From: Acidobacteriota bacterium
GTDB lineage: Bacteria; Acidobacteriota; Blastocatellia; Chloracidobacteriales; Chloracidobacteriaceae
Direction of reading: 5' to 3'
NCBI GenBank assembly: GCA_016208495.1
Contig: JACQXX010000096.1
Location: forward strand, 1-32,009
Length of the DNA: 32,009 nucleotides
The position numbers and the translations under genes were made by a program. The notes under the pieces are model-generated. The model worked only from the letters and a program-made list of their open reading frames with translations, ran no database searches and was not told the origin of the DNA. Below, one piece after another: positions 5,558 to 22,337 of the stretch (positions within the stretch are counted from its first letter, which is position 1; each line of letters starts with the position of its first letter).

Positions 5558-5610
5558 GGCACTCATAAGCGCCAGGATAAGGATCTTAGGCCCGCAGGGT
5601 CGTTGTGTAA

Positions 5611-5857: not shown

Positions 5858-8800
5858 ATGAGCAGTCCAACCACTCAACCGAACACCGGTATTCGTCGTA
5901 ACTGGGAAGGATGGAGTCTATCGGGGGTATTGGTCCTGCTGACAATCGGAATTGTCGGAATGCAAACTCCCTCGTCACAGGCAACTTCGGGGCGAGTCCC
6001 GTCGAAAGGGCAAAAAGTGTCGCTGACAGTCAGTCCTTCAGCCTGCACGATTACAGTCAACAGTCCCGTCCAGGAAGTTACGCTTGCCGCACCGGAAGGA
6101 GTGCGCAACGGCAATTGCACGCTGGGCGAGGCGATTCTGGCGGCCAATGGGAACCCGAACATCACGGAATGTCCGTGCGCGGGTGGCAGTCCGGTGACGA
6201 TTCAGTTACAGGCTGGAATGACCTACACCTTGACGACTGTGGCCACGACGCTCTATGGACCGACAGGACTGCCGGCAATTTCCAGCACCATCGTGATTGA
6301 AGGCAACGGCGCCGTCATCGAGCGAAGCAGTCTCGGTGGAACACCAGCCTTCCGGTTGTTTTCCATTGCGGGCACGATCAACGGCGTTCAGGCGGTTGAA
6401 ACAAATCCGGATTCGACAACTCCGGCGCCGAATACCTTGCTTCCAGCGGGGAATTTAACTCTGCGCACTGTGACGCTACGCAATGGTCTGACGCTGGGCG
6501 GCCTCGCGATTGGAAACGGTGGTGGCGGGCTTGGGAGTGGCGGGGCCATCTTCAACGCTGGTTCACTGACGATTGATTCCTGTACCCTCTCGGGCAACCA
6601 GGTCGTTGGAGGCGGGTCGTTTTGTTGCGAACCCGGCGGCGGCGGCGGCGGCATGGGCGGATTGGGTGGACCTGGGGCTGTTGGAATTGGTGGCGGTGGC
6701 GGTGGCGGCATGGCAGGTTCCGGTGCCGGCAGTACCATCATGAGAACTGGTGGCGGCGGCGGCGGGACAGTCAACAACGGAAACAGTAACAGCTCTGGCG
6801 GAAGTCTCAATGGCGGGAATGGCGGTCTCAGCGCCAATGGGAGCCCTGGAGGGTTTGGTGGAGGTGGCGGCGGGAACGGAAGATTTCCTGGCATTGGGGG
6901 CGCTGGCGGATTTGGCGGCGGCGGTGGTGGCGCGATAGATGGAATTGGAGGAAACGGAGGGTTCGGCGGCGGCGGCGGCGCCGGGGGTGGCGCATTCAAC
7001 CCTGGCATCGGGGGTTTTGGCGGCGGTGGCGGTGGCCAACAAAGCGGTCTCGGCGGCAATTTAGGTGGGTTTGGCGGTGGCTTTGGGGGAAGCAATGGTG
7101 GTGGCGGTGGCGGACTGGGCGGGGCAGTTTTTTCAACCGGGATGCTCGACTTAACCAATTCGACCCTATCTGGCAATTCAGCGGTTGGAGGTTTTACGAG
7201 TTTTGCCCAATCTGGAAGCGGATTGGGTGCTGGTCTCTTCGTCCGCAACGGAACCACAACCGTTGCCAACTGTACCTTCAACAACAACACGGCTTCACGC
7301 GGAAACGGCGCTCAGATCGGTGCCCATGCCGGCGGATGTCTCTACGTGCTGGGCGATGGGGAAACGGCCACCGTGACCGTGGTCAATTCGATTTTTGCGA
7401 ACTCGACGAGTATTGACGGTGGTGTCACCGATGCCTTTATCAACACCATCAACTCCGGAACGGTGACGCAAACCGGAAATGCCACCAATCTCGTCGAAGT
7501 CAATGGTGGCGGTGCCAATGCCTTGCTGGGTGTTACTCAAATGGCTGACCCGAACCTGGAGGTCCTGGCGCTCAACGGCGGGCTAACCGAAACTCATTTA
7601 CCGCAACCGGGAAGTCCGGTCATCAATAACGGTTCCGGCAGCCGTCCAAACAATGTGGATCAACGCGGCCTTTCCGCGTCCTGCCGGGCTGACATTGGGG
7701 CGGTTGAAATTCAGGGGATGGTTCCATCCATCTCGGCGGTATTAAGCAGCGGCGAAACGATTTGTAATGGAAGCCTGGCAACCCTCACCGTGACGGTCAC
7801 TGGCGGGACAGCGCCATATAGCGTCATGGTTGCAAACTATGGGTTTGTCGGTGTGCCAGACACCAATCCCTTTACCTTTAACGTCAATCCGGCCAGCGAC
7901 ACCACCTACGCCATTGACACAGTGGCCGATGCCAACGAGTGCGCCGGATCATCAAGCGGGAGTGCCACGGTGATCGTGAGATTGCCGCCGGTGGCAAAAG
8001 CAGGAGTCTCGCAGACGATCTGCGAATTTGGGACCACCACCACCTTGGTGGGTAATTCGCTTTCGCCCCATGAAACTGGCCTGTGGAGCGTCGTGAGCGG
8101 CGGAACCGGCACCCTGAGCAATGCGACTAATCCGAATACTACGTTTACGCATACGGGCGGCGCTGGGCCGATTACGCTTCGGTGGACAGTGTCCAATCCC
8201 CCCTGTCTGGCGGCGATGGCGGAGGTGACGATTACCATTCAACCTCCGGCCACGGTCAATGCCGGACCGGATCAAACCGTCCTGACAACCAATCCGACGG
8301 CAATGCTGGCGGCCACCTTCGGGAACGGTGCCACCAGCGGAATATGGACCGGCGGAGCAGGGGTGTTTACCGACGCTTCGGACCCGAACACAACCTACAC
8401 GGCGACGCAGAGTGAAAGCAACGCGGGAATGATCACGTTGACCTTCACGACCGACGATCCACCGGGGCCCTGTGGTCCAGTCAGTGATTCGGTGACCATT
8501 TTCTTGCGCAACCCGGTGGGATTGATGGTGGCTGACACGACCAATCATCGGATCCAGGGCTTTGACGGCACACAGTGGATCATTATCGGTGTTGGGACGA
8601 TTGGCACCGGTCCCGGCCAGTTCCGATTGCCCGAAGCCGTGACCTGCAGCCCCAATATTCAACGGATTTATGTGGCCGATACGGGCAATAACCGCATTCA
8701 GTGGTCAACGGATAGTGGCGCAACCTGGGCGAACTTTGCGACACTGGGTTCCGGGTTGAATCAGGTTCGTGTGCCGCAAGGACTTGCGCTTGATGGAGAT

Positions 8801-9409
8801 GGCAACCTGTATGTATCGGATACCGGAAATGGTCGGGTGCTGCGTTTCAATGGAGGCGTGCCGGGCGCCGGTGTCGTGATTGCCACCAACGGTGCCGCGA
8901 GCGGACAGGTTGGGAGCCCACGTGGTCTGGCGATTGATGCGACATTTCGATTGTTTGTAACGGATGAAAGTAACAGTCGCATTCTGCGTATCAGTAATGC
9001 CAACACGACGGTAAGTGGGACGAGTGGAACCATTCTGGCCTCATTTGGAACCGGCATGAACCAGGTGAAGAACCCACAGGGAATCACCATTGACGACACT
9101 GGAACACTCTTTGTGGCGGATACGGGGAATTCACGCATCCTGCGCTGGGCCAATGCCAACCCGGCGAGTGCGTCAACGATGGCATTGACTGGCTCAGGAT
9201 TGGGTCAGGTCAATCGTCCGGAAGGGGTCACGATCAGCCAGTTCCTCAATGGACCATTGTCAGGGGCTCCAGTCTTGATCGTAGGCGATACCTCAAACCA
9301 TCGCATCCAGGGCCGGTTTCTCCCAACCGGGCAGTGGAATTTGATTGGCTCGCCAAACGGCATTGGGACTGGAGTGGGGCAATTCCGGTCGCCATCGAAG
9401 ATCAGGTAA
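5858..9409 (+). CDS. Giant secreted CSLREA-type beta-helix / Ig-like / NHL protein
   Basis: An 1183-aa protein. Start: ATG at 5858 behind AAAGGAGGT; an upstream in-frame start at 5747 has no such site. A membrane-type segment (LSGVLVLLTIGIVGM, about residues 19-33) acts as signal peptide. Residues about 82-95 carry NGNCTLGEAILAANGN, a variant of the CSLREA motif (LGEAI in place of LREAI). Residues about 145-620 form a beta-helix interrupted by a Gly-rich stretch (about 248-425) and ending in a choice-of-anchor Q motif (DQRGLSASCRADIGAVE). One SprB/PKD-like domain and two Ig-like repeats follow (to about 886), then six NHL blades to the C-terminus, ending FRSPSKIR. Domain calls are by eye. Likely exported; adhesion is inferred. 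Confidence 0.85.
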   Translation: MSSPTTQPNTGIRRNWEGWSLSGVLVLLTIGIVGMQTPSSQATSGRVPSKGQKVSLTVSPSACTITVNSPVQEVTLAAPEGVRNGNCTLGEAILAANGNPNITECPCAGGSPVTIQLQAGMTYTLTTVATTLYGPTGLPAISSTIVIEGNGAVIERSSLGGTPAFRLFSIAGTINGVQAVETNPDSTTPAPNTLLPAGNLTLRTVTLRNGLTLGGLAIGNGGGGLGSGGAIFNAGSLTIDSCTLSGNQVVGGGSFCCEPGGGGGGMGGLGGPGAVGIGGGGGGGMAGSGAGSTIMRTGGGGGGTVNNGNSNSSGGSLNGGNGGLSANGSPGGFGGGGGGNGRFPGIGGAGGFGGGGGGAIDGIGGNGGFGGGGGAGGGAFNPGIGGFGGGGGGQQSGLGGNLGGFGGGFGGSNGGGGGGLGGAVFSTGMLDLTNSTLSGNSAVGGFTSFAQSGSGLGAGLFVRNGTTTVANCTFNNNTASRGNGAQIGAHAGGCLYVLGDGETATVTVVNSIFANSTSIDGGVTDAFINTINSGTVTQTGNATNLVEVNGGGANALLGVTQMADPNLEVLALNGGLTETHLPQPGSPVINNGSGSRPNNVDQRGLSASCRADIGAVEIQGMVPSISAVLSSGETICNGSLATLTVTVTGGTAPYSVMVANYGFVGVPDTNPFTFNVNPASDTTYAIDTVADANECAGSSSGSATVIVRLPPVAKAGVSQTICEFGTTTTLVGNSLSPHETGLWSVVSGGTGTLSNATNPNTTFTHTGGAGPITLRWTVSNPPCLAAMAEVTITIQPPATVNAGPDQTVLTTNPTAMLAATFGNGATSGIWTGGAGVFTDASDPNTTYTATQSESNAGMITLTFTTDDPPGPCGPVSDSVTIFLRNPVGLMVADTTNHRIQGFDGTQWIIIGVGTIGTGPGQFRLPEAVTCSPNIQRIYVADTGNNRIQWSTDSGATWANFATLGSGLNQVRVPQGLALDGDGNLYVSDTGNGRVLRFNGGVPGAGVVIATNGAASGQVGSPRGLAIDATFRLFVTDESNSRILRISNANTTVSGTSGTILASFGTGMNQVKNPQGITIDDTGTLFVADTGNSRILRWANANPASASTMALTGSGLGQVNRPEGVTISQFLNGPLSGAPVLIVGDTSNHRIQGRFLPTGQWNLIGSPNGIGTGVGQFRSPSKIR
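6606..7127 (+). repeat. Gly-rich low-complexity insert in the beta-helix
   Basis: Dense GGC/GGT runs encode GGGGGG and GGFGGGGG segments for about 170 residues inside the beta-helix domain of the 5858 protein. Similar poly-Gly loops are common in CSLREA/beta-helix surface proteins. The reverse strand reads as a Pro-rich artefact. Confidence 0.85.
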
Positions 9410-9419
9410 CAAGAAAAGA

Positions 9420-9461
9420 TTTGGAGTGCGGGGATTTGTCCCCGCACTCCAAATTGTTTTT
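9420..9461. terminator. 34-bp perfect hairpin plus T-run; short form of dispersed repeat
   Basis: A 15-bp perfect stem (TTTGGAGTGCGGGGA and its complement) with loop TTTG, followed by TTGTTTTT. It starts 11 bp after the stop of the 5858 gene and sits 8 bp beyond the stop of the convergent gene at 9469. It should act as an intrinsic terminator for the plus-strand gene. The same hairpin family occurs at 10117, 13455 and 22231. Confidence 0.85.
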
Positions 9462-9468
9462 CCAGGGT

Positions 9469-9840
9469 CTAGGGTTTATTGTTCTCCGGGGCTTTTTTGG
9501 CCCGACCAACTGGGCGAGCTTGAACCGTTGTCCCAAAATCCGCCAGCATCGGGCTGGTTTTCCCGTAAAACCCCTTGAGCGAATCACTGTCTTTGCTCAA
9601 ATCGGCTTCGCATTTAGTGAAATGTTCGGAATAGGCATCATAGGCTCGCTCAGCTTGACGCATAAAATTTTCATAGGTCAATCGTAACTCCTCCAACTGT
9701 TGCCGGGCAGTACGGCGTTCATCTTCTTTCAAGCGTGGTGGAAAATCAGGTTCAGCTTTATGTTTGGCAATGCCATCCGCCATTCGTTCCAACCGTTGAA
9801 CCAGAGCATCATATTCTCTGGATGTCAGCTTTCGCGGCAT
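9469..9840 (-). CDS. Hypothetical small charged coiled-coil protein
   Basis: A 123-aa protein that I do not recognise. It is rich in charged residues and probably helical (RLERMADGIAKHKAE, then LEELRLTYENFMRQAE), with a basic C-terminal tail (GRAKKAPENNKP). It has no signal peptide or membrane segment. I chose the ATG at 9840 because AAAGGAG lies just upstream; the frame stays open 39 bp further, to 9879, without a better site. It faces the 5858 gene, and the two share the hairpin between them. Function unknown; it is likely a real gene because of the ribosome site and ordinary composition. Confidence 0.6.
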   Translation of the reverse strand: MPRKLTSREYDALVQRLERMADGIAKHKAEPDFPPRLKEDERRTARQQLEELRLTYENFMRQAERAYDAYSEHFTKCEADLSKDSDSLKGFYGKTSPMLADFGTTVQARPVGRAKKAPENNKP

Positions 9841-9981
9841 AAACAAGCTCCTTTGTTTGATTTCAATTGAAGTTCCCATTCAGTGGAATGGCTTTTCCAG
9901 ATCAAAGATTGGATAAAACACGTCAAAATATGCACCGTGCCTGACACAGAATATCCATTTCCGTTGGAAAAAAACACCTTT

Positions 9982-10086
9982 CTTTTGAGTGACGAAGCAG
10001 TTTTTAAGAAAGAATGGACATTCCACACAAAGAAATGACCTTTCCTTATAAAAGAAATGGCATTCTTGATCAAAAAAAGAACATTC
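9982..10086. repeat. Degenerate 21-bp repeat, about 5 units
   Basis: AT-rich gap between the small protein and the RM gene. On the minus strand it reads as about five diverged 21-bp units, visible as 7-residue echoes (ECSFFDQ, ECHFFYK, ERSFLCV, ECPFFLK, NCFVTQK). Several units hold a small palindrome such as AGAACATTCT or GAATGGACATTC. I do not think it is translated, because the reading frame begins in the hairpin repeat and has no ribosome site. Confidence 0.5.
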
Positions 10087-10116
10087 TGTTAGAAGTTTAT
10101 TCCGAATAGAACAAAT

Positions 10117-10150
10117 TTTGGAGTGCGGTGACTTGTCACCGCACTCCAAA
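10117..10150. repeat. 34-bp perfect hairpin, short form, overlapping the RM stop codon
   Basis: A 15-bp perfect stem (TTTGGAGTGCGGTGA and its complement) with loop CTTG. It is the same element as 9420-9453, with one base pair changed on both arms (G-C to T-A). The stop codon and last four codons of the RM gene lie inside the right arm. Confidence 0.9.
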
Positions 10151-13100
10151 GGAAGGAGCTATCGCCGGTAATGATTTCACGATGCGGACGGTTTCAAGGC
10201 TGACGGTGATGACTTGTTTGACCAGCCGGACGATATATTCCGGGTCGTCCAGCCGGTTTGGGTCGTTGGTGATGCCGCTCCGGGCATCGGTCGAGACTTG
10301 ATACTGGTCAATCACCCATTCCAACGCAGAGCGATTACCCAACCGATAGTCATAACATTCCGGCGGGATGCCTTCGAGCGTCAGGAAGTCATTGTAAATC
10401 AGGGCGGTTTTGTCTTTTGAAAGCTTCATCTTCTCGACGCGCCACGACAGCGGCAGGTCTTCGCGTTCGACGTGACGGAGCCGGTATTCCGGCTGTTGTT
10501 CATATTCGACATGCAGTGTGGCAAGTTGCCGCCCGGCTTCGACAAAGCCCCAAAACTCCGGCGCAAAGGGGAGGCGCGGCAATTCGCGTTTCAGGTTGGC
10601 GGCATAGCGTTCGCGATATTCGGGATGATGCAGCAACCCATAGACATAATGGAAAATATCCCATTTGGTAAGGTTCTGGTCTTCGTAGTGGGTGCGGAAT
10701 TGCTCAAGCGCCCAGTCCGTGATGTTCTCGCGCCGGTTGGAGCCGTCTTCTGAGTAAGTGTAGAAGGGAAAACTTTGAGTCGTGCAGCCAGGGCTTACCA
10801 AATGTAAATCCGGTAAAATATTGACCAGCATCACCATAAATGGCTTTTCTGAGCCCGAATCTGTTAAGCAAATTACTTGATTTTCCTTTTCTGAATTTGG
10901 GTTTGGGAAAATAGAAGGGAATTGATACCGACGTTCGTTCAGGTACTGATCAAAGTAAAAAACTGCTTTTGTAAAAGGGCGATATAGAGCCGAACGAATG
11001 TGTGTTTCATCAAATTCAATACTCAGATTTCTTTCAAGGTATCTCTTCAGCCCCTCTGACCAACTGATTTTCTTGTCGTCATTCAACACAAAGTCATCAA
11101 TTTTAGTCCCTTTGGATTGACGGCTCCATTTGAAAACCTGTTCATTGTAGGTCTCGATCATTCGTTTGATATTTGAACTCAACTCATTACGGTTAAAGTT
11201 GTATGCCCAGTCATCCCGTGAGGTGGCGACTCCACGACCGTAATTTTTGAAAATTGCCTGAACATTTGTCTCTTTGGCCGCCTTTAACTCCTTTGTTCCC
11301 ATTGGAATGAAGGTATCAAATTCTGAATGCAATCCTTCAGTCAGCCAGGTATGGTTGTCATCAGGCGAAAGCAATTGCCAATTAACCTTTCCAGCCGAAC
11401 TTTTATCTTCAAGAAAGTGATACTTTTCTTCCTTGCGCCAGAATTCATCGGTTCGGGTATAAAAAATCTGCGGTTTTCCAGTTCGTTCTTTGCGCTTTAC
11501 AAGGATATTGATGCTTACGCCAACCTGAATTCCAAAAACATTGTGGGTTGTACCAGAGATCTTCGGGTTTTTGCGCACGTTGCCGCCTAAATCCAGGCAG
11601 TAGAGTGCATCAAAATTCTGCTCAAGATGTTTGCGCATGCCGTCAAACGCAATCTGATCAAGAAAGCTGTTATTGGTGACGAGCGCGACGATTCCTTCTT
11701 TACCGATTCGGTCGCTTGCCCAGCGAATGGCTTTCACATACGGGTCAGACAGCGAGTTTTTATTGGTCGCGGCTGAATCCTTCGCGTAGGTCTCAGCCAC
11801 GCGTTTATCCATCACCTTGTACTTGCGGTTTTTGTTGTTGTCGTTTTCATTCAACTGTCCGACGTTATAGGGCGGGTTGCCGATGATGACAAAGAGCGGC
11901 GTCTGTTTTTGCTTTTCAACCCGCGCCGTGTTTTCGGCATTCATAAAGGCAAAGGCGGTTTGCGAGCCTTCCGCCAGTTCAAAGGTGTCTACCAAACAGA
12001 TGCCTTCAAAGGGTTCGTAACTGCCGACGCGCTCGACATATTCGTGTTCGATATTCATTGATGCGATGTAGTACGGCAGGAGCATAACTTCGTTACAATG
12101 CAGTTCGTGTTTGTATTTGTGCTCCAGGGCCGATTTGCGGATTTCACATATCACGCGCACGATGAAGTTGCCCGTTCCGACAAATGGGTCCAGGATGTGA
12201 ACGCCTTTGTCGCTGAGTGAGCGGCCAAACTCTTTCTGCAGAATCTCTTCCACCGACTTGACCATAAAATCCACAATCGGCTGGGGTGTGTAAACAATGC
12301 CGTGGGTGTCGGCCACCTTGACCGAAAACCCCTGGAAGAACTTTTCATAGACGGTGTTGAGAAACGTCTGTTTCTGCCCGTAGTCGTCAATCGTGGCCGC
12401 CGCCACTTCAATCGCTTTGTAAAAGCGATCCAGACTCTTTAAAAACTCGTCACGGTTGAAGGCTTTGGAGGTCAGCGCGTAGATGACCTTTTCAATTTCA
12501 TGGGCAATCACATTGCGGTTGGCAAAGTCTGGATTGTTGAAGACCCGCCGGAAAATGCGTTCGGTGAGCAGGTGCTGAATCAACATTTCCTCAACCGCCG
12601 CTTCCGACAAATTGGGGTTGACCGACTGGCGGCACAGTTCGACAAAACCAGCGAAGGCATCAATGAATTTCCGGTTGGTTTTGCGTTCGGTTTCGATCAG
12701 CTTGAGGACACTTCCGGCGAGTTCGGGCACGCGGTCTTTAAACTCTTCGACCGCCTGACCCCATTCGGCATAGGCGGGCGGCACATATTCGAAGAATCGT
12801 TTCAGAACACCGACGAGTTGTTCGGGCTGACGAAGATTGACGACTTGAACCTCTTTTCCAGCCTGCCACAAAATGGCCTCGGTTGGTTTTTGGAAGAGGA
12901 TGTTTTCTTTGGGATAGCCGACATCAAACTTTTTCCTGGCTTCTTTGCGGAGGTCGTCCTTTTCGTCCTTGGCTTCCCAAATCCCGTGGGTGAGGTAAAA
13001 CGGGTCAATAATCGCTCCATCGGCATGGAGTGGATATTGCCCGGAACGTTTGATTGGATACTGGGGAACCAGGGTCAACCCGGTTTTGGTGCAGCAATAT

Positions 13101-13228
13101 TCCAGCAGCGACTGAAAGGGAACGCTCACCGCACCTTCGTGTCTGGCATCAACGGCGGCAAATTGTTCGAGGCGGTGGTAGTAGTCCTTAACAGGTTTTT
13201 GATTCGGGTTGAGTGGAAGGTTGAGCAT
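10136..13228 (-). CDS. Single-chain type ISP/IIG-like restriction-modification enzyme
   Basis: A 1030-aa enzyme. The N-terminal region carries a PD-(D/E)XK-type nuclease signature, D70 and E85-A-K87 (HADGAIID, then GIWEAKDEKDD). A helical linker follows, then an N6-adenine methyltransferase domain: IVYTPQPIVDFM (311-322), SAM-binding DPFVGTGNF (347-355) and catalytic NPPY (451-454). The C-terminal part, with LLHHPEYRERYAANLKRELP and GRQLATLHVEYE, resembles the specificity domain of type ISP enzymes. No helicase domain lies between nuclease and methylase, unlike classical type ISP proteins, so it may cut without translocation. Start: ATG at 13228, with an in-frame TGA two codons upstream and no clear ribosome site. 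Its upstream DNA is a heptamer array. The C-terminal residues FGVR and the stop derive from a hairpin repeat. Confidence 0.88.
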   Translation of the reverse strand: MLNLPLNPNQKPVKDYYHRLEQFAAVDARHEGAVSVPFQSLLEYCCTKTGLTLVPQYPIKRSGQYPLHADGAIIDPFYLTHGIWEAKDEKDDLRKEARKKFDVGYPKENILFQKPTEAILWQAGKEVQVVNLRQPEQLVGVLKRFFEYVPPAYAEWGQAVEEFKDRVPELAGSVLKLIETERKTNRKFIDAFAGFVELCRQSVNPNLSEAAVEEMLIQHLLTERIFRRVFNNPDFANRNVIAHEIEKVIYALTSKAFNRDEFLKSLDRFYKAIEVAAATIDDYGQKQTFLNTVYEKFFQGFSVKVADTHGIVYTPQPIVDFMVKSVEEILQKEFGRSLSDKGVHILDPFVGTGNFIVRVICEIRKSALEHKYKHELHCNEVMLLPYYIASMNIEHEYVERVGSYEPFEGICLVDTFELAEGSQTAFAFMNAENTARVEKQKQTPLFVIIGNPPYNVGQLNENDNNKNRKYKVMDKRVAETYAKDSAATNKNSLSDPYVKAIRWASDRIGKEGIVALVTNNSFLDQIAFDGMRKHLEQNFDALYCLDLGGNVRKNPKISGTTHNVFGIQVGVSINILVKRKERTGKPQIFYTRTDEFWRKEEKYHFLEDKSSAGKVNWQLLSPDDNHTWLTEGLHSEFDTFIPMGTKELKAAKETNVQAIFKNYGRGVATSRDDWAYNFNRNELSSNIKRMIETYNEQVFKWSRQSKGTKIDDFVLNDDKKISWSEGLKRYLERNLSIEFDETHIRSALYRPFTKAVFYFDQYLNERRYQFPSIFPNPNSEKENQVICLTDSGSEKPFMVMLVNILPDLHLVSPGCTTQSFPFYTYSEDGSNRRENITDWALEQFRTHYEDQNLTKWDIFHYVYGLLHHPEYRERYAANLKRELPRLPFAPEFWGFVEAGRQLATLHVEYEQQPEYRLRHVEREDLPLSWRVEKMKLSKDKTALIYNDFLTLEGIPPECYDYRLGNRSALEWVIDQYQVSTDARSGITNDPNRLDDPEYIVRLVKQVITVSLETVRIVKSLPAIAPSFGVR

Positions 13229-13231
13229 AAA

Positions 13232-13347
13232 TCAGGGTTCGGGGTTCGGGGTTCAGAAGTCAGGGTTCAGGGTTCAGGGTTCAGGGTTCAGGGTTTAGGG
13301 TTCAGGGTTCAGGGTTCAGGGTTTAGGGTTCAGAAGTCAGGGTTCAG
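13232..13347. repeat. Heptamer array (GGGTTCA)n upstream of the RM gene
   Basis: About 16 units of period 7, mostly GGGTTCA, with variants GGGTTTA, GGGTTCG and AGAAGTC. The array begins 4 bp upstream of the RM start codon, so it occupies the place of its leader and promoter. The G-rich strand has many GGG runs spaced by 4 nt, suited to a G-quadruplex. Similar period-7 sequence is seen at 50-75, 154-168 and 29896-29928. Confidence 0.92.
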
Positions 13348-13454
13348 ATCGAAACTCTCATGAAGAAAACGCTTTGAGGCAAAGACAGCAAAAAGGTGGA
13401 AGATGTGCTGTCATTCTATAGAAACGGCAAGAAAAAATACAACCAGGGATTTTC

Positions 13455-13552
13455 TTTGGAGTGCGGGGACTTGTCACCGCTTTTCCATAAGCCGACTTGT
13501 CGGCAGAAAAGTCGCTGAGTACCAAAGCGGTGATAAGTCCCAGCACTCCAAA
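13455..13552. repeat. 98-bp nested palindromic element (long form)
   Basis: The outer arms are TTTGGAGTGC plus about 19 further bases and a near-perfect reverse complement. The centre holds a second hairpin, GCCGACTTGTCGGC. Its reverse complement matches the element at 22231-22337 over most of its length, which has about 9 additional bases in the centre. The pair therefore brackets the third giant gene in opposite orientation. Confidence 0.88.
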
Positions 13553-13770
13553 GAAATGGCTTTTTCCAGTTGGATTGAAATGTTTTTCCAAATCTGTAAT
13601 AAGAAAGTGAAAACACTCACATTCAGGCAAATCCATAAAATCGAGCACCCAAAATCTATTACCCCCAATTTGAAGAATGAAGACTCCGAGGGCTGAAAAC
13701 CCATTGAAGCCCTGAGCTTCAAACCAGAGGTAACCGACCGGCGTGCCTTCACCGTTGCCCTGGAGGATCT
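13553..13770. other. Leader region of the third giant gene
   Basis: No gene seen. It ends with TGGAGGATCT directly before the ATG at 13771, a good ribosome site. No convincing -35/-10 pair was found by eye. Confidence 0.5.
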
Positions 13771-16700
13771 ATGCCGCAATCCCCCCGGTTGATTGGAATC
13801 ATTGCCATTGGTTTGTTCTTTGGCATCACCCTTGAATTGACACTGGTTGCAAGTCAAGCTGAATCTCAGCCCGGATTGGGTTCAAGTCATTTCAAAGCTG
13901 AACGTGCCACCCCAACCTTCATCGGTGAAAAAGCGATTGAACATTTGAAGCAGAATGGATCCTACGACTCACTGGCGGAGGCAGTGACCGCCGCACGCTA
14001 TGGGGTGAACTGGGCGGAGCATCCCCGATTCAAGCGGTTAAACGGGGCCTATGAAGCTGAAAATCCGGCCCAGGGGTTTACCAGCTACTTCACACCTGAA
14101 GGCGTGCATCTGATTGACGGAAAAAGCGGGAATCCAGGATGGTTTCTGGAATTGAAGCTACGCGGAATCGGCTATGGAAGCCAACTGGCTGAAATCTCCT
14201 CGGGCACGCCAACCGTGGTGACGAATCGGGTGGAACTGGTTCGAAATTCTTCATTCGAAATTCTTCATTCTTCATTCAAAGAATGGTTCGTCAACGGTCC
14301 GCAGGGACTCGAACATGGCATGGTGATCTCAGAGCGACCTGGGAAGAGTCAGAATGCCGAAAATCTGCGGGTGGTGTTTGACCTGGAGGGAAGCTTAAAA
14401 GCGCAAGGGGTAGACAATGGCCAGGCGGTGGAATTTCTCAATTTGGACGGGGACCGGGTGCTGCGCTATGACCAGCTCAAAGTCAACGACGCGACGGGGC
14501 GGGCACTGACGGCACGCCTCGCCATAGAGGCAGGTCGTCTGGTGTGGGAAATCGCTGATGAGGGAGCGGTGTATCCGATTACGATTGACCCAACCTTTAC
14601 CCAGCAATCAAAGTTGACGGCTTCAGATGGCGCCGCCCAGGACATATTTGGCGAATCGGTGGCGATTGACGGCGAAACGGCAGTCGTTGGGACACGATTT
14701 GGACCAGGTCCGACCAACAGCGACCAGGGCGCCGCCTACGTGTTTGTGCGAAGTGGCACGACCTGGAGTCAGCAACAAAAATTGACGGCTTCGGACGGGG
14801 CCAGTACTGACTTTTTTGGCGTTTCAGTGGCTATTGACCGGCAGACAATCGTGGTTGGGGCGATGGTCGGTCCAGGATCGGTAAGTGGCGACCAGGGTGC
14901 TGCTTATGTCTATGTCAGATCAGGGACGACCTGGACGCAGCAACAAAAATTGACGGCTTCGGACGGGGCGCTTGATGATCGTTTCGGGGCTGCTGTCTCA
15001 ATTGACCGGGAGACGGTCGTGGTTGGCGCGTCATTTGATCATGTCGGTGCCAATGCCGATCAGGGATCAGCCTATGTGTTTACCCGGAGTGGAACGACCT
15101 GGACGCAGCAACAAAAATTGACGGCCTCGGATGGGGCGAGCAATGACCAGTTTGGAACTGCCGTGGGGATTGATCGGGAAACGATTGTGGTTGGCTCGGC
15201 GGTGGGGCCGGGTTCAGCCAGCACTGATCAAGGTGCGGCCTATGTCTATGTGCGGAGTGGAACGACCTGGACACAGCAACAGAAGTTGACGGCTTCGGAT
15301 GGAGACTTGTTCGATGGCTTTGGTTTTTCGGCTGCAATTGACGGGGAAACGGTCGTGGTGGGGGCGACTTCCGGACCAGGTTCGGCCAATGCTGATCAGG
15401 GGGCGGCGTATGTCTACACCCGGAATGGGACAACCTGGACACAACAACAGAAGTTGACCGCCTCGGACGGCGCGGCAAACGACTTTTTTGGAACCTCCGC
15501 CTCTCTTTCTGGAGAAAGGATTGTGATTGGGTCACCGTCCGGTCCCGGACCGGCCAACGGTGATCAAGGCGCCGCCTATGTGTACGTGCGGGCAGGCACA
15601 ACCTGGAGCCAGCAGCAAAAGTTGACGGCTTCGGATGGGGGATTGGGTGACAATTTCGGAAGCTCAGCCGCGATTGACGGCGAAACAATCGTGATCGGGT
15701 CGAATTTCGACGACATCGGCGCCAACAATGAACAAGGGTCCGCCTTTGTCTTTACCTGCACCACGCTTCGCACCTGGATTGAACAGGCTAAAGTTGTGGC
15801 CTCCGACGGAGCGCAAGACGACAGTTTCGGCGAAGCCGTGGCCATTGACGGAGAAACCGTTGTGGTTGGGGTACCAGGTGATGACCTTGGTGGCTCCAAT
15901 GAAGGATCAGCCTATGTGTTTGTGCGGGCAGGAACCACCTGGACGCAGCAACAGAAATTGACCGCCCCTGATGCCGCATCAAACGCCTTTTTCGGCAGAT
16001 CGGTGGGAATTGATGGGGAAACCATTGTGGTTGGGACCCGGGCTGAGAAAGTGTATGTCTATGTGAGGACAGGCGGTACCTGGAATCCACAACAGACCAT
16101 ACCAAAGCCGGTTGATCCACAGGGAGGCACTGAATTTGGCTGTTCGGTGGCCATTGATCGGGATACTATCGTGGTTGGGGCAATGAACAAAAATTTTGGC
16201 ATTAATACTTCTCAAGGTCAGGCCCATGTCTTTGTGCGAACAGGCACCACCTGGAGCTTGCAACAATCAGTGCATGACTCCACCACCGGGAGGGAAGACG
16301 ACAATTTCGGCAATGCCGTCGCCATTGACCGGGACACGATTGTCATCGGCGCCTATCGCGCATTTTTTGCTGGAAGAGCTGGTGGAGCCTATGTGTATGT
16401 GCGAACCGGAACGACCTGGAACGAGCAGCAAAGGTTGGTTTCCAACGCCGGCTCCCCCGTCCGATTTGCCTATTCAGTGGATATTGACCGGGATACCATT
16501 GTTGCCGGAGCACCGGATGCTTTTACCAATGAAGGAGTCGGTGGCATCAAAGATGGGGCCGCCTATGTGTTTACGCGAACTGGAACCACCTGGGGACAAC
16601 AAGCCCGACTGATCTCCTTTGACGCAGGTGATTCCGATTTTGGTTCTTCAGTGGCTGTTGATGGCGAGCGGATGGTCAGCGGGGCCTATTTTGCTCAGGT

Positions 16701-19700
16701 TCCAGGGGTGAGCGGCTCACCTGGTGCGGCCTATGTATATACCCGAACCGGGACAAGCTGGAATGGCCATCAACGACTGACGGCCTCTGACAGGACTTCA
16801 GGGGATCGGTACGGTTTAGCGGTGGCCATGGATGGAGGCGCCATCATCGTTGGGGCACCCCTGGATTTTGTGACGGCTTCGAATCAGGGTTCAGCTTATA
16901 TCTATGACCCCGATTGCCCGACGTGTTCGACCGTGACCGGGACCGTAACTGGCAGCACAACTATTTGTGCGGGAAACTCGACCACCATCACGGTGACGGT
17001 GTCGGGTGGAACGCCGCCTTACACAGTGACGCTCACCAATGGCGGAGGAACCCAAACCGGGAACAGCCCATTGAATTTCACGGTGTCGCCAACCTTTTTC
17101 ACCAACTATTCAGTTCAATCCGGTATGGATGCCATCCTATGTCCAATGGGAGGAAGTGGGAGCGCCACCGTGATGGTTACCGCAGGGCCGACGGCTTCAA
17201 ACGCCGGACCCGATCAGTCGGTATGTACCAGTTCACCCGCCGCGACATTGGCGGCAAACAATCCATCGAACGGGGTCGGAAGCTGGTCGGTAGTGACGGC
17301 GCCGGCAGGCGGTTCAACCGATTCGTCACAATTTAGCAACCCAGCCTCACGGACAGCCGTCTTTACGCCAAATCCAGTGGTTGCTGGTGGTTACACCCTG
17401 CGGTGGACAATTAGCACCGGGTCGCCCTGCCCGGCTTCAACCACCGATGATGTGCTGATTACCTATGTGGCGACTGCCAATGCCGGGCCGGACCAGATCC
17501 TGTGTGTGAGTTCCCCAGCCGCGACGCTGGCAGCCGTGCCACCAACCAGCGGAAGCGGTGTCTGGTCAATCATCTCAGCTCCACCATTGGGTTCGGTGGC
17601 GGGAATCCAGATTGCCAATGGCAGCAGCCCATCCGCAATTTTTACAGCCGATCCAGCGGTAACGGGCGTGTACATCCTGCGCTGGACAGTCAGCGGGGCG
17701 TCGCCGCCCTGTGCGGCAACCACGACCGACGATGTTGCGATCACCTACCGGCCTGTCCCGACCACTTCCAACGCCGGATCTGATCAAACCCTATGTACCA
17801 CCTCTCCGGCGGTCACGCTGGCGGCAAACAATCCATTGGTCGGGGTGGGGAGCTGGTCGGTGGTGACGGCCCCGGCAGGTGGTTCAACCGCTTCCGGGCA
17901 GTTCAACAACACGGCCTCACGAACGGCGGTTTTTACACCAGTTCCAGTCGTGACCGGGAGCTACACGCTACGGTGGACCATCTCAAATACCCCTTGTTCA
18001 AACTCGACGGATGAGGTGACGATTACCTACACGCTTGGACCGACGACATCAAACGCCGGGTCGGATCAAACCCTGTGCCTGACCAGTCCGACAACAACGC
18101 TGGCGGCCAACAACCCATCGGTTGGGGTGGGAAGCTGGTCGGTGGTGACGGCGCCGGCAGGCGGTTCAACGGCCTCAGGGCAGTTTGGCAACCCAGCTTT
18201 GGCGACCTCAACGTTTATCCCAAGTCCAGCCGTTACCGGCAGTTATACATTGCGTTGGACGATTAGCGGAGGCTCTTTGTGTCCGGATTCAACCGATGAA
18301 GTGACGATTACCTACAATTCGTCCCCGACATCTGCTGACTCAGGGCCGGACCAGTCTGTCTGTGTGACTTCCCCGACCGCGACGATGGCCGCCAATGCCC
18401 CAACCAGCGGAAGCGGGATGTGGTCAGTCCAGGGGGCGCCGGGGGGAGCTTCAACCTCATCATCACAATTCAGCAACCCGACATCGCCGACGGCAACCTT
18501 CACGCCAAATCCGGTCGTGGTGGGGAATTATGCACTGCGCTGGACCATTTCAAGTTCAGGGTGTAGTTCATCAAGCGATGCCTTGACCCTTACCATCAAT
18601 CAGGTGCCAACAAGTGCCAATGCCGGGTCAAATCAATCCCGATGCACTGGAAATCCGGGTGTGTCACTGTCAGCCAACAATCCATCGGTTGGAGTCGGAA
18701 GCTGGTCAGTCGTATCGGCCCCGGCAGGCGGGTCAACGGCTTCATCACAGTTCAGCAACCCAGCCTCACGGACATCATTCTTCTTTCCAAATCCAGCGGT
18801 TGCTGGAATTTACACCCTCCGGTGGACCATCTCGAATCCCCCGTGCGCGGCTTCGACCGATGAAATGATCATTGGCTATACACAATCCCCATCGTCCAAT
18901 TCCGGACCGGATCAGACGCTTTGTGTGGGGACTCCGGCAGTCATGGCGGCCACCCCAGCGAACACCGGTTTTGGCACCTGGGCAGTTCAATCGGCTCCAG
19001 GTGGCGGCTCGACATCATCCGCCCAATTCAATAACCTATTTTCGCCAACGGCCATTTTTACGCCGAATCCGGCGGTGACTGGCGGGTACGCTTTGCGCTG
19101 GACGGTTTCCAATGGCACCTGCACACCGGACGCGATAGATGCTCTAACCGTTCTCTATAGCTCCCCGCCAACAACTTCCAATGCTGGATCGGACCAGACG
19201 TTGTGCCCTGGATCGTCGTCAGTCACCCTGGCGGCAAACAATCCAGGGACGGGAAGTGGCACCTGGTCGGTGGTCACGGCGCCAGCCGGAGGTTCGACCA
19301 ACTCAACCCAATTCAATAATCCAGGCTCGCCAACCGCGGTTTTCACACCGAATCCGGCGGTTGTCGGCAGTTACACGCTGAGGTGGACGATTTCCAATGA
19401 TGGGTGTACTTCAACTGACGAGATGGTGGTTGCCAACGTCGTGGGCACGATTTCAAACGCTGGAGCCGATCAGACGATGTGTGCCACCGATTCGGCCACG
19501 CTGTCAGCCAACACGCCGACCATCGGTGTTGGTGCCTGGTCGGTGGTGAGCGGACCGGATACGAATGTTTCACAGTTGAGCAATCCAGGCTCACCGACGT
19601 CGAGTTTTACGCCGTCGGGGGGTACTGGCACCTACATTCTCCAGTGGACGATTTCAAACCCACCCTGTACCGCCTCAACCGATACGGTTTCGATCACCGT

Positions 19701-21249
19701 GAATGCACCGGCCACCACTTCAAATGCCGGGCCAGACCAGGCAGCATTGTGTATCACCACGCCAACCACGACCCTGGCGGCCAACCCGCCGGCGTCTGGA
19801 ATCGGAAGCTGGTCGGTGGTTTCAGGACCATCAACCCTGCTGTCGCAGTTCAGCAACCCAGCATCGCCAGCGGCCCTATTTACAGCAGCAGGTGGGGCCG
19901 GAAGTTACAGGCTTCGGTGGACAATCACTCCGACGGTGCCATGTCCAGCTTCGGTTGACGAAGTGGTGTTGACCTATGCGTTTCCACCGACGACGGCGAC
20001 TGTTGGTAGCGCGCAGACAATTTGCGCGAATAGTACAACCTCCGGACTGGGCGGTAACACCCCGACGAATGGAACCGGAAGCTGGAGCGTGGTCAGTGGC
20101 GGGACAGGAACCTTCGGTCCAAATGCCACGACGCCGAACGCCACCTTTACCCACACGGGAGGGACGGGACCGGTGACGGTGCGGTGGACAATTTCAAATT
20201 CACCCTGCACGCCAGATTCAAGCGCCGATGTGACAATCACGATTACTCCAGGGCCAACAACTGCCACAGTTGGCGGAGCGCAGACGATCTGTGCAACTGG
20301 CACAACGGTTGGTCTGGGTGGGAACACGCCAGTGATTGGAACGGGAAGCTGGAGTGTGGTGGGCGGCGGAACAGGAAGTTTCAGCAGCGCCAGCGACCCC
20401 GACGCGACGTTTACCCACACGGGTGGAGCCGGGCCGGTCACAGTGCGATGGACGATTTCAAATTCACCCTGTGCCGCTTCATCCGCGACAGTGACGATTA
20501 CCATCAACCAGCCGCCGAGCACCGCCACGGTGGGAGGAGCGCAAACAATTTGCGCGAATGGTACGACCACCGGTTTGGGTGGGAACACTCCGACGAATGG
20601 AACCGGAAGCTGGAGCGTGGTGGACGGTGGAACGGGAACCTTCAACCCGAACGCGACGACGCCGAACGCGACGTTTACCCACACCGGCGGGACGGGACCA
20701 GTCACCGTGCGATGGACAATTTCAAACGCACCCTGCACGCCGGATTCAATAGCGGATGTAACGATTACAATTACGCCATCGCCGACACCAGCCACGGTTG
20801 GTGGGTCGCAGACGATTTGTACAAATGGGACAACGCTTGGTCTGGGGGGCAACACGCCTGTGAATGGAACAGGAAGCTGGAGTGTGGTGGGAGGTGGAAC
20901 GGGAAGTTTCCTTCCGAATGCCTCCACGCCGAATGCGATGTTCCAGCATACGGGCGGCACGGGGCCGGTGATGGTGCGGTGGACAATTTCGAATGGAAGT
21001 TGTCCGGATTCAACAGCCACGGTGCTGGTGATGGTCAACGTGCTGCCAACGGCAACAGCAGGTGGGCCGCAAACGATTTGCACCAGCGGCACGACGACGG
21101 GATTGCGGTGGCGACACTGGCAGCCAGTCTTGGAGGCGGTGCCACCTCGGGAATGTGGTCAGGTGGAGCCGGAACCTTCACGCCAGACAATACGTCGCCA
21201 AATGCGACCTACACGCCGACGGCGGGAGAGATCGCGGCGGGAGCGGTGA
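13771..21249 (+). CDS. Giant secreted FG-GAP / Ig-like repeat protein, frameshifted at its 3' end
   Basis: A 2492-aa frame. Start: ATG at 13771 behind GGAGG. Residues 1-30 form a signal peptide (LIGIIAIGLFFGITLELTLVASQA). Residues about 40-270 are an N-terminal domain shared with the 30036 paralogue (AENPAQGFTSYFTPEG, then GAVYPITIDPTF). Residues about 278-1046 hold 14 FG-GAP repeats, pattern QQQKLTASDGA..D.FG, then VVVGA, then GAAYVYVRSGTTW; 14 equals two seven-bladed propellers. Residues about 1048-1140 form one SprB/PKD-like domain, followed by about 14 Ig-like repeats. The last repeat runs out of frame near 21100 and ends in an Arg-rich nonsense tail (QTIRRQMRPTRRRRERSRRER) at 21249. The proper continuation is at 21102-22220. 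Likely an exported adhesin-like protein; the break may be real or a sequence error. Confidence 0.8.
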   Translation: MPQSPRLIGIIAIGLFFGITLELTLVASQAESQPGLGSSHFKAERATPTFIGEKAIEHLKQNGSYDSLAEAVTAARYGVNWAEHPRFKRLNGAYEAENPAQGFTSYFTPEGVHLIDGKSGNPGWFLELKLRGIGYGSQLAEISSGTPTVVTNRVELVRNSSFEILHSSFKEWFVNGPQGLEHGMVISERPGKSQNAENLRVVFDLEGSLKAQGVDNGQAVEFLNLDGDRVLRYDQLKVNDATGRALTARLAIEAGRLVWEIADEGAVYPITIDPTFTQQSKLTASDGAAQDIFGESVAIDGETAVVGTRFGPGPTNSDQGAAYVFVRSGTTWSQQQKLTASDGASTDFFGVSVAIDRQTIVVGAMVGPGSVSGDQGAAYVYVRSGTTWTQQQKLTASDGALDDRFGAAVSIDRETVVVGASFDHVGANADQGSAYVFTRSGTTWTQQQKLTASDGASNDQFGTAVGIDRETIVVGSAVGPGSASTDQGAAYVYVRSGTTWTQQQKLTASDGDLFDGFGFSAAIDGETVVVGATSGPGSANADQGAAYVYTRNGTTWTQQQKLTASDGAANDFFGTSASLSGERIVIGSPSGPGPANGDQGAAYVYVRAGTTWSQQQKLTASDGGLGDNFGSSAAIDGETIVIGSNFDDIGANNEQGSAFVFTCTTLRTWIEQAKVVASDGAQDDSFGEAVAIDGETVVVGVPGDDLGGSNEGSAYVFVRAGTTWTQQQKLTAPDAASNAFFGRSVGIDGETIVVGTRAEKVYVYVRTGGTWNPQQTIPKPVDPQGGTEFGCSVAIDRDTIVVGAMNKNFGINTSQGQAHVFVRTGTTWSLQQSVHDSTTGREDDNFGNAVAIDRDTIVIGAYRAFFAGRAGGAYVYVRTGTTWNEQQRLVSNAGSPVRFAYSVDIDRDTIVAGAPDAFTNEGVGGIKDGAAYVFTRTGTTWGQQARLISFDAGDSDFGSSVAVDGERMVSGAYFAQVPGVSGSPGAAYVYTRTGTSWNGHQRLTASDRTSGDRYGLAVAMDGGAIIVGAPLDFVTASNQGSAYIYDPDCPTCSTVTGTVTGSTTICAGNSTTITVTVSGGTPPYTVTLTNGGGTQTGNSPLNFTVSPTFFTNYSVQSGMDAILCPMGGSGSATVMVTAGPTASNAGPDQSVCTSSPAATLAANNPSNGVGSWSVVTAPAGGSTDSSQFSNPASRTAVFTPNPVVAGGYTLRWTISTGSPCPASTTDDVLITYVATANAGPDQILCVSSPAATLAAVPPTSGSGVWSIISAPPLGSVAGIQIANGSSPSAIFTADPAVTGVYILRWTVSGASPPCAATTTDDVAITYRPVPTTSNAGSDQTLCTTSPAVTLAANNPLVGVGSWSVVTAPAGGSTASGQFNNTASRTAVFTPVPVVTGSYTLRWTISNTPCSNSTDEVTITYTLGPTTSNAGSDQTLCLTSPTTTLAANNPSVGVGSWSVVTAPAGGSTASGQFGNPALATSTFIPSPAVTGSYTLRWTISGGSLCPDSTDEVTITYNSSPTSADSGPDQSVCVTSPTATMAANAPTSGSGMWSVQGAPGGASTSSSQFSNPTSPTATFTPNPVVVGNYALRWTISSSGCSSSSDALTLTINQVPTSANAGSNQSRCTGNPGVSLSANNPSVGVGSWSVVSAPAGGSTASSQFSNPASRTSFFFPNPAVAGIYTLRWTISNPPCAASTDEMIIGYTQSPSSNSGPDQTLCVGTPAVMAATPANTGFGTWAVQSAPGGGSTSSAQFNNLFSPTAIFTPNPAVTGGYALRWTVSNGTCTPDAIDALTVLYSSPPTTSNAGSDQTLCPGSSSVTLAANNPGTGSGTWSVVTAPAGGSTNSTQFNNPGSPTAVFTPNPAVVGSYTLRWTISNDGCTSTDEMVVANVVGTISNAGADQTMCATDSATLSANTPTIGVGAWSVVSGPDTNVSQLSNPGSPTSSFTPSGGTGTYILQWTISNPPCTASTDTVSITVNAPATTSNAGPDQAALCITTPTTTLAANPPASGIGSWSVVSGPSTLLSQFSNPASPAALFTAAGGAGSYRLRWTITPTVPCPASVDEVVLTYAFPPTTATVGSAQTICANSTTSGLGGNTPTNGTGSWSVVSGGTGTFGPNATTPNATFTHTGGTGPVTVRWTISNSPCTPDSSADVTITITPGPTTATVGGAQTICATGTTVGLGGNTPVIGTGSWSVVGGGTGSFSSASDPDATFTHTGGAGPVTVRWTISNSPCAASSATVTITINQPPSTATVGGAQTICANGTTTGLGGNTPTNGTGSWSVVDGGTGTFNPNATTPNATFTHTGGTGPVTVRWTISNAPCTPDSIADVTITITPSPTPATVGGSQTICTNGTTLGLGGNTPVNGTGSWSVVGGGTGSFLPNASTPNAMFQHTGGTGPVMVRWTISNGSCPDSTATVLVMVNVLPTATAGGPQTICTSGTTTGLRWRHWQPVLEAVPPRECGQVEPEPSRQTIRRQMRPTRRRRERSRRER
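14243..14277 (+). repeat. In-frame heptamer repeat (TTCATTC/GAAATTC), 5 units
   Basis: Five consecutive 7-bp units: GAAATTC, TTCATTC, GAAATTC, TTCATTC, TTCATTC. They encode the peptide SSFEILHSSF. It falls at the same place, just before EW..NGP.GLE.G, where the 30036 paralogue carries (TCATCCC)x4. Confidence 0.9.
14602..16909 (+). repeat. Fourteen FG-GAP repeats
   Basis: About 51 to 60 codons per unit. Units 1-7 are close copies (LTASDGA core). Units 8-14 are more diverged, with EQAKVVASDG, LQQSVHDSTT and EQQRLVSNAG at the unit starts. This suggests recent expansion of the first propeller. Pattern matches the FG-GAP_2 type of bacterial beta-propeller repeat. Confidence 0.85.
17191..21101 (+). 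repeat. About fifteen Ig/PKD-like repeats in two subtypes
   Basis: Units 1-10 follow SNAGPDQTLC, LAANNPSVGVGSWSVV, TLRWTIS. Units 11-14 follow ATVGGAQTICANGTT, GLGGNTPTNGTGSWSVV, FTHTGG, VTVRWTISN. Units 11-14 are very alike at DNA level. Unit 15 begins as the second subtype and, after the frameshift, continues as the GGATSGMWSGGAGTF type seen in the other giant genes. Confidence 0.82.
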
Positions 21250-22220
21250 CGTTGACCTTCACGACGAATGATCCGGACGGCCCGTGTCCGGCAGCCTCAG
21301 ATGACGTGACGATTACGATTGCCTCGTGCATTGGACTGATGGTGGCGGATACAACGAATCATCGGATTCAGGGTTTCGATGGTACACAGTGGAGCGTCAT
21401 TGGTGTGGGGACAGTTGGCACCGGTCCTGGCCAGTTCCGATTGCCGGAAGCGGTGACATTTGACCAATCAGGAACGATTTACGTCGCCGATACAGGGAAC
21501 AACCGCATCCAGTGGTCAACCGACAGCGGAGCGACGTGGACGAACTTCGCCACGATTGGTTCGGGGTTGAATCAGGTGCGGGCGCCGCAAGGGCTGGCAC
21601 TGGACAGTGCCGGCAATCTCTATGTGTCGGATACTGGAAATGGGCGGGTGATGCGATTTAACGGTGGGGTTCCCGGACCAGGCGTGGTGATTGCCTCGAA
21701 CGGAGCCGCCAGTGGCCAGGTGGGAAGTCCACGCGGATTGGCGATTGATGCGACATTCCGGTTGTTTGTAACGGATGAAAGTAACAGTCGAATCATGAGA
21801 ATCAGCAATGCGCACACGACGGTGAGTGCCACGAGCGGGGCGATAATCGCGACACTGGGAGCCGCGTTGAATCGAGTCAAGAACCCACAGGGAATCGCGA
21901 TTGACGGAAATGGAACACTGTTTGTGGCGGACACAGGGAATTCACGAATCCTGAGATGGATCAACGCGAATCCGAATAATGCAACGACGCTGGCGTTGAC
22001 GGGTGTGGCATTAGGCCAGGTGAATCAACCAGAAGGAGTCACCCTTACTCAGTTCATCACCGGGCCGCTGGCGGGAAATACTCTGTTGGTAGTGGGAGAC
22101 ACGGCCAACAACCGCATCCAGGGACGACCGCTGCCGACGGGAGGCTGGACCTTGATCGGAGCACCAAACGGCATTGGTTCGGGTGTCGGACAGTTCCGGT
22201 CACCATCGAAGATCCGGTAA
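21102..22220 (+). pseudogene. Out-of-frame C-terminal part of the 13771 gene: last Ig-like repeat plus NHL propeller
   Basis: Reading from 21102 in the frame one base back from the upstream gene gives IAVATLAASLGGGATSGMW, the rest of an Ig-like repeat. Six NHL blades follow (VADTTNHRIQGFDGTQW, VADTGNNRIQWSTDSG, VSDTGNGRVMRF, VTDESNSRIMRI, VADTGNSRILRW, VGDTANNRIQGR), ending FRSPSKIR. This is the exact C-terminal module of the genes at 710 and 5858, so it belongs to the 13771 gene. Adding one base in the G-run at 21099-21101 would rejoin the frames. It has in-frame ATGs at 21153 and 21339 but no well-spaced ribosome site, so independent translation is doubtful. The open frame upstream to 20184 is a shadow. 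Confidence 0.8.
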
Positions 22221-22230
22221 CAAGAAAAGA

Positions 22231-22337
22231 TGTGGAGTGCGGGGACTTGTCACCGCTTTGGTACTCAGCGACTTGTCGCTGTAACCTGCCGACAAGTCGG
22301 CTTATGGGAAAGCGGTGACAAGTCCCCGCACTCCAAA
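22231..22337. repeat. 107-bp nested palindromic element (long form) at gene 3' ends
   Basis: Outer arms of about 29 bp are almost perfect complements (GGAGTGCGGGGACTTGTCAC and onward, against the right arm ending in CACTCCAAA). Two hairpins lie inside: GCGACTTGTCGC and GCCGACAAGTCGGC. It lies 10 bp after the stop at 22220, with the same flank (TAACAAGAAAAGAT) as the short element at 9420. The AlkB-type gene ends inside it. Confidence 0.9.

Follow-up and report, generated by a model that had tools for sequence, protein, structure and literature searches.

The dispersed hairpins of the window (the whole 32,009-nucleotide stretch of Acidobacteriota DNA analysed here) most likely constitute a family of REP sequences and REPINs copied into the 3′ flanks of genes by a cognate single-strand HUH/Y1 transposase, a divergent RAYT (probability about 0.87). 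In the broad sense this is a REP/RAYT system, an already known kind, with an untypical head, GGAG or GGAC instead of GT[AG]G, a departure that we count against this reading. The evidence comprises the copy number of the unit, the covariation in its stem, the architecture of its doublets, the linkage of one RAYT class to it in other genomes, and the sequence and predicted fold of that RAYT. Each REP unit consists of the head TTTGGAGTGC, a hairpin whose stem varies but stays paired and frequently has CTTG as its core, and a GCTTT tail; the approximately 100-bp copies are REPINs, in which two units point their heads outward around a spacer that often holds further hairpins, and lone units and 34-bp palindromes (collapsed REPINs) are taken as remnants. 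By analogy with other REPs, the RAYT would recognize the foot and the folded hairpin on one strand, cut, and rejoin there; we infer that it cleaves and moves REPs in this manner.

Hairpin copies in the window and across its genome

The window holds four copies of the family, with the following parts:

9420–9453, no strand assigned: 34-bp palindrome TTTGGAGTGCGGGGATTTGTCCCCGCACTCCAAA with a 15-bp stem, interpreted as a collapsed REPIN of which the two outer halves are left
10117–10150, no strand assigned: 34-bp palindrome TTTGGAGTGCGGTGACTTGTCACCGCACTCCAAA with a 15-bp stem, given the same collapsed-REPIN reading
13455–13483, plus strand: left REP unit of the REPIN 13455–13552, one mismatch to the unit pattern
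13491–13504, no strand assigned: inner hairpin GCCGACTTGTCGGC between the two REP units (from sequence)
13524–13552, minus strand: right REP unit of the same REPIN, diverged, GGAGTGCTGGGACTTATCACCGC (from sequence and the second-pattern search)
22231–22259, plus strand: left REP unit of the REPIN 22231–22337, 11 bp past the stop codon of ORF 20184–22220
22266–22281, no strand assigned: inner hairpin CAGCGACTTGTCGCTG (from sequence and fold)
22288–22301, no strand assigned: inner hairpin GCCGACAAGTCGGC (from sequence and fold)
22309–22337, minus strand: right REP unit of the REPIN 22231–22337 (from sequence and the unit-pattern search)

The initial annotation had described four copies with shared arms and a shared core. 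All four were recovered at their coordinates, with the corrections that the core at 9420 reads GATTTGTC, so that the proposed GACTTGTC does not hold there, that the left end at 22231 is TGTGGAGTG, and that the right arm of 13455–13552 ends in CAGCACTCCAAA. As it had also described, the two short copies have perfect 15-bp stems, closed by a 4-nt loop, that differ by one pair altered on both arms (G-C at 9420 versus T-A at 10117); their DNA folding energies are −19.0 and −17.8 kcal/mol, and for each 0 of 200 shuffles folded as well. ORF 10136–13228 on the minus strand has its 3′ end within the palindrome at 10117–10150, which contributes the last codons and the stop (FGVR*). The long copies fold into long branched hairpins (−36.3 and −47.7 kcal/mol; z −11.3 and −12.1 versus shuffles), and the further hairpins described for them are present at 13491–13504, 22266–22281, and 22288–22301, while the second inner hairpin of 13455–13552 has decayed. 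The long form is not an extended version of the short one but a REPIN of two tail-to-tail units with inner hairpins between them. No Rfam family scored above its gathering threshold in the window, and none of the five sub-threshold matches overlaps a hairpin copy. Tandem GGGTTCA/GGGTTTA heptamers lie at 13230–13340, just upstream of ORF 10136–13228 and near the REPIN at 13455. An element of 115–116 bp with the ends TAAGTACC...GGTACTTA, near-identical at all three places, occurs at 29936–30050 of the window, at 1382 of locus L037, and at 2353 of locus L087; it interrupts a Y1 transposase gene in L037, a REP unit of L086 is split by a diverged copy, and it is probably a second, MITE-like family.

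Across the draft assembly of the window's genome (G000; 8.38 Mb in 177 contigs), the unit pattern GGAGTGCGGYGRCTTGWCRCCGCTTT has 139 matches at up to three mismatches and a second unit pattern, GGAGTGCNNNGACTTGTCNNNGC, has 124 at up to two, with no match to either reversed-pattern control, positions being available for about 100 places of each; the exact arm TTTGGAGTGCGG occurs 61 times, against eight for its reverse. The second pattern leaves three stem pairs free, and from its 36 exact places we read the covariation: the free pairs are Watson-Crick in 32, 36, and 24 of the 36, with two wobbles in addition at the third, and they vary on both sides (G-C, C-G, A-T, and T-A). None of 10,000 shuffles reached as high a count, a figure that is no probability because the copies are related and the shuffles ignore their kinship; counted by type of place, Watson-Crick pairs are found in 10/12, 12/12, and 7/12. 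Pairing is not strict at the third pair, since G stands opposite A in 10 of the 36 units and a wobble in two, and we count these G–A oppositions against the REP/RAYT reading. The initial annotation had named a genome with only these four copies and no covariation as the outcome that would speak against a dispersed hairpin family; with 139 and 124 units and covarying stems, both the family and its covariation are borne out.

For the forms of the element and their gene context we used 61 distinct G000 sites from the retrieved loci, which are part of the 139 matches and exclude sites within 60 bp of a locus end. These divide into 41 lone units, 16 convergent pairs with heads outward, two sites with units in one direction, and two clean palindromes, the latter being the window's own short copies; two further, decayed palindromes were seen by eye in loci L007 and L030. 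Since 41 of the 61 sampled sites are lone units, and just one of the 41 has a recognizable decayed partner up to 200 bp away, REPINs do not make up the majority in G000, and we count this too against our reading. Outward-headed inverted doublets recur in loci of many other genomes, with a spacing that is similar within a genome (for instance 186 bp in Verrucomicrobiota LBMAG hypo.bin2, 126 bp in Blastocatellia SSF51, and elsewhere 120 bp). Over all loci, an inner hairpin with the CTTG core is present in the spacer of 31 of the 63 REPINs sized 85–230 bp (shuffled expectation 0.0006, copies within one genome not being independent), and REPINs with inner hairpins are also found in other genomes, including the two just named.

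A RAYT class linked to the repeat

The nine Y1 (PF01797) genes of G000 have no copy of this REP within 1.5 kb, which counts against our reading. We rejected Y1 genes in general as the movers, since those of G000 adjoin other repeats; the palindromic repeats adjoining them (loci L031–L039; e.g., GGGGCGGACCTGCGTGTCCGCCC at L039, by eye) raise the possibility that several REP-like systems coexist in this genome. In a screen of 92 Y1 loci for units with at least six paired stem positions, four loci matched, of which L271 and L306 were judged to be chance matches and L317 and L329 led to the cognate RAYT class. Two divergent Y1 genes adjoining units in this screen, from genomes G070 and G042, were combined with a homologue from a Chlamydiota MAG (G067) into profile A1, whose strong matches have e-values of 2.7 × 10–45 or better, plus the fragment of one broken gene. 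Clustering the ORFs of 127 loci (L100–L226) for linked protein families gave no transposase cluster, and several of the large clusters proved to be in-frame REPs. Such translated REPs yield recurring peptides (e.g., LECGDLSPL and GDKSPHSK) and protein clusters over 13 loci, and peptide stretches of this origin may pollute protein databases.

With a grammar of the head GGA[GC]TGC, a hairpin, and GC[TC]T[TC] within 320 bp of the gene, same-head units were found at 23 of 26 strong RAYT loci, on both sides in 15; leaving aside the three profile seeds, the counts are 21 of 23 and 14 of 23. The denominator covers 26 of 27 strong loci, L361 having been left out as the other part of the gene in L372. 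The next, weaker RAYT class has such units at 0 of 19 loci (18 distinct, L336 and L362 being one stretch counted twice), and other Y1 loci at 1 of 57, a set that also includes at least one stretch counted twice (L231, L257). Of the three strong loci that failed, L347 starts at a contig end, L353 has GGACTGC hairpins by eye, and L375 has none that could be seen by eye. Where units occur on both sides, the gene mostly lies inside a plus/minus pair, like the spacer of a REPIN, and between RAYT genes the loops and stems differ while the head is constant. Upstream of the full gene in the Anaerolineales MAG G042 (L346, 1073–1490), a short REPIN together with the start of the RAYT gene is present in three tandem copies. 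The association also appears at the level of genomes: a strong RAYT is present in four of 39 relatives, namely four of the 15 with the REP and none of the 24 without (Fisher P = 0.017), and in 16 of a further set of 50 that had been selected because they contain the REP. Among the latter, the median number of units is 57.5 with the RAYT (n = 16) and 14.5 without (n = 34; p = 0.013, unscaled for genome size). The 34 genomes that have the REP and lack the RAYT, some of them rich in units (116 in G064, 97 in G044), are counted against the reading.

The cognate RAYTs are proteins of 176–200 amino acids, 40–65% identical to the first row of our alignment (A2). The HYH and Y residues are invariant in 20 aligned sequences, with N-[PA] after the Y. 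The NCBIfam model NF047646 (REP_Tyr_transpos) matched above its curated cut-off in nine of 11 tested, the other two falling below it (71.0 and 73.4 versus 80), and the PF01797 match is weak. In a search of the PDB, the sequence profile recovered 4er8 (E = 1.5 × 10–6), and the predicted fold (pLDDT 87.5) likewise has 4er8 as its top match (E = 1.8 × 10–8), at only 16% identity, followed by IS200/IS605 transposases. The HUH motif and catalytic Y with its Y...NP-type motif, together with the Y1 fold as modelled, place the protein in the RAYT/TnpA-REP family. We built a tree, whose bootstrap had not settled, from 24 of the 27 strong and three of the 19 weak loci; in it a 100/100 branch separates all 24 strong RAYTs from the weaker class. 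The tree mixes phyla (e.g., a 95/90 group of Planctomycetota, Verrucomicrobiota, Acidobacteriota, and Hydrogenedentes), with phylum labels more clustered than when shuffled (10 changes versus a mean of 15.3). In three Acidobacteriota genomes (G015, G050, and G076; loci L333, L358, and L367) one RAYT lineage stands between the same two neighbours (proteins 86–90% and 83% identical), which look like an enoyl-CoA hydratase and an acyl-CoA dehydrogenase; this constancy argues for long residence in these genomes.

In the window's own genome, a 177-contig draft, profile searches at 10–15 found no RAYT of the cognate class (best e-value with the G001 protein 0.67), a further point against our reading. 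The link to a REP-associated tyrosine transposase that the initial annotation had anticipated is found in relatives and other phyla, where the RAYT is flanked by the REP, and not within G000. In the same-family genome G001 the RAYT lies between units, with GGAGTGCGGGGACTTGTCACCGC upstream, as at position 13455 of the window, and GGAGTGCGGTGACTTGTCACCGC downstream, as at 10117. The absence from G000 would be explained if an ancestor of the window's lineage carried this RAYT and the gene was lost after amplification, or if the repeat-flanked gene lies in a contig gap. As REPs lacking their RAYT are described as frequent by Nunvar and Licha (2013; PMC3686654), the absence is not disqualifying. 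Plasmid and phage collections, considered as possible vehicles, held no match to the G001 RAYT at 10–5 (one query protein).

The position of the hairpins relative to genes bears on a rival explanation, in which they are non-mobile structures selected at gene ends as (bidirectional) terminators or stabilizers of mRNA 3′ ends and owe their likeness to constraint and gene conversion. By crude ORF calls, the median distance from the 61 sampled sites to a neighbouring gene is 13 bp for 3′ ends (55 neighbours) and 45 bp for 5′ ends (41 neighbours), upholding the preference for 3′ ends raised in the initial annotation; they fall mainly outside genes, with 48 between called genes, eight inside long ORFs, and five unclassified. 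Sites between convergent genes make up 15 of 48, compared with nine of 58 other junctions at the same loci (counts only, from the same crude calls). Together with the compensatory stem variants, this would suit terminators, yet selection for a terminator would leave unaccounted for a head, TTTGGAGTGC, that is fixed though outside the stem, doublets with a genome-specific spacing, linkage to one particular RAYT class, and the eight sites within long ORFs. We thus regard this rival as improbable, while single copies may possibly have taken on a terminator role after insertion. MITEs of an ordinary DDE insertion sequence would likewise have terminal inverted repeats and a length near 100 bp. However, lone half-elements are common here (41/61), the ends are themselves hairpins, we came across no insertion sequence bounded by these ends, and an HUH/Y1 RAYT is what the gene linked to the repeat encodes; we regard this second alternative as very improbable.

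Origin of the short palindromes and the paralogue flanks

An ordinary unit ends in GCTTT, whereas the 34-bp palindromes end in GCACTCCAAA, the reverse complement of the head and thus the far end of a REPIN. They are best read as REPINs collapsed by a deletion between the two loops. The joining of two outer REPIN halves gives symmetrical arms at once, so that the "compensatory" pair of the palindromes needs no second mutation. The initial annotation had seen in this doubly changed pair a sign of selection or gene conversion; as one deletion suffices, it is no evidence for either by itself. At 9420 the palindrome pairs G with C, whereas in the 10 of 36 ordinary units that have G at this place it always stands opposite A; joining the outer halves of a REPIN like 22231–22337 gives the G-C pair, which fits the collapse. 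Suitable parents exist, 22 of 85 REPINs having outer halves that match exactly over 13 nt, and a third clean palindrome lies beside a RAYT in genome G080 (L355). Palindromic remnants from deletion inside REPINs are mentioned as an unpublished observation by Bertels and Rainey (2011; PMC3116915).

An alternative is that each palindrome derives from one REP only, with arms that became longer or symmetrical through selection, compensating mutation, or gene conversion. The pair altered on both arms between 9420 and 10117 and the genome-wide covariation of the stem would suit this, and collapse alone leaves unexplained why the only two clean palindromes among the 61 G000 sites lie within 700 bp of each other. 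The GCACTCCAAA end, the G-C pair at 9420, the availability of candidate parents, and the previously mentioned deletion route all stand against it, and we consider it unlikely.

The collapse reading also fits the paralogue flanks. As the initial annotation had noted, equivalent 3′ flanks of two paralogues are followed by the two forms: TAA plus CAAGAAAAGA is exact at 9407–9419 and 22218–22230. The paralogues upstream of the elements are 73% identical over 1.1 kb, in an alignment that stops inside the left unit. These facts fit a single ancestral REPIN that predated the duplication and collapsed in one copy, with local gene conversion a possible alternative; the forms may interconvert or move, as had been suggested. 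The large protein encoded at 5747–9409 combines an NHL-type part (weak ScyF match) with a choice-of-anchor Q domain that scores above the cut-off, and its paralogue lies downstream. A third paralogue (ORF 650–5557) lacks the REP, and its 3′ flank (5590–5720) carries a repeated GTGGTGCGCAGCCCACGG hairpin of another repeat family.

Relation to known REP systems and occurrence across phyla

The REPINs of Pseudomonas fluorescens SBW25 (Bertels and Rainey, 2011; PMC3116915) resemble the present family in their short hairpin units, inverted doublets with a preferred spacing, lone units as remnants, compensatory changes, and link to a RAYT. They differ in the head (GTGG or GTAG in SBW25 versus GGA[GC] here), and set against them the present family has inner hairpins in about half of the sampled REPINs, occurs in many phyla, and lacks a RAYT of the class in G000. 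The GTAG and CGTC super-families (Di Nocera, 2013; PMC3733652) are similar as palindromes of 20–40 bp with a 5′ unpaired tag, sub-families set apart by complementary stem changes, mostly head-to-head dimers, and positions near gene 3′ ends, with some families occurring in distant species. The tag here, GGAG or GGAC, is neither GTAG nor CGTC, and we therefore do not file the family under the GTAG super-family with its GT[AG]G tag, a separation drawn from the text description rather than a consensus figure, so that overlap with a listed family is possible. The TnpA-REPs of subclass 2.8 (Nguyen et al., 2018; PMC6006769) share an NHYH motif, a W followed by an aromatic residue or H, a Y...NP-type motif, a length of approximately 180–200 amino acids, and hairpin-flanked genes. 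That subclass is associated with GT[AG]G REPs and a proline-rich N-terminal part and comes from Cyanobacteria in the sample of that study (with relatives elsewhere noted), whereas the present class has GGAG/GGAC heads and a short N-terminus that lacks a proline-rich part. The TnpA-REP of PDB 4ER8, determined with its REP hairpin, is the best match to the cognate RAYT in both sequence profile and fold, and its REP is said to carry a GTAG guide (PMC8266576). Our literature search, which covered papers with GGAGTGCGG and "repeat" in part, and had figures and supplements outside its scope, found no GGAGTGC-headed REP.

The exact 26-nt unit pattern was found in at least 118 stretches from at least 11 named phyla, six stretches having no phylum assigned. 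Those among the matches listed are Verrucomicrobiota, Acidobacteriota, Planctomycetota, Chlamydiota, Coatesiibacteriota, Chloroflexota, Armatimonadota, Lentisphaerota, Hydrogenedentota, Kiritimatiellota, and Pseudomonadota; MAG contigs can be misbinned, and one Chloroflexota record (G084) has a single unit. Fifty of the matching genomes hold from 1 to 399 units at up to two mismatches, with a control of zero in each, and a Chlamydiota MAG of 1.6 Mb holds 155. Among the relatives, the REP is present in 15 of 39, the window's genome included. The Chlamydiota RAYT gene has a G+C fraction of 0.326, close to the low value of its contig (0.324), and is thus no fresh binning error from a G+C-rich genome.

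This phylum range is unusually wide. REPs are usually described as lineage-specific. We tentatively raise the possibility, which we hold to be rather doubtful, that a single REP/RAYT system, its REP sequence nearly invariant, has passed from phylum to phylum (Acidobacteriota, Verrucomicrobiota, Planctomycetota, Chlamydiota, Chloroflexota, and others), with REP-RAYT-REP itself as the mobile ancestor and REPINs as its gene-less derivatives. The REP would then stay almost fixed because recognition by the RAYT holds the head and the tail while the stems drift by paired changes, and the RAYT gene would occupy the place of the REPIN spacer. The usual view, to the contrary, is that RAYTs are domesticated and stay put.

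The proposed collapse of REPINs corrects a common inference, in that one deletion can produce a "compensatory" change in a long palindrome. More broadly, the choice of REP by a RAYT is known for only a few pairs. The present family links one RAYT class, across divergence at the level of phyla, to one unit pattern whose heads are not GTAG, and many of the genes have natural stem and loop variants beside them. These REP/RAYT pairs offer ready material for dissecting recognition, and they make the movement of REP systems from one phylum to another a directly testable question.
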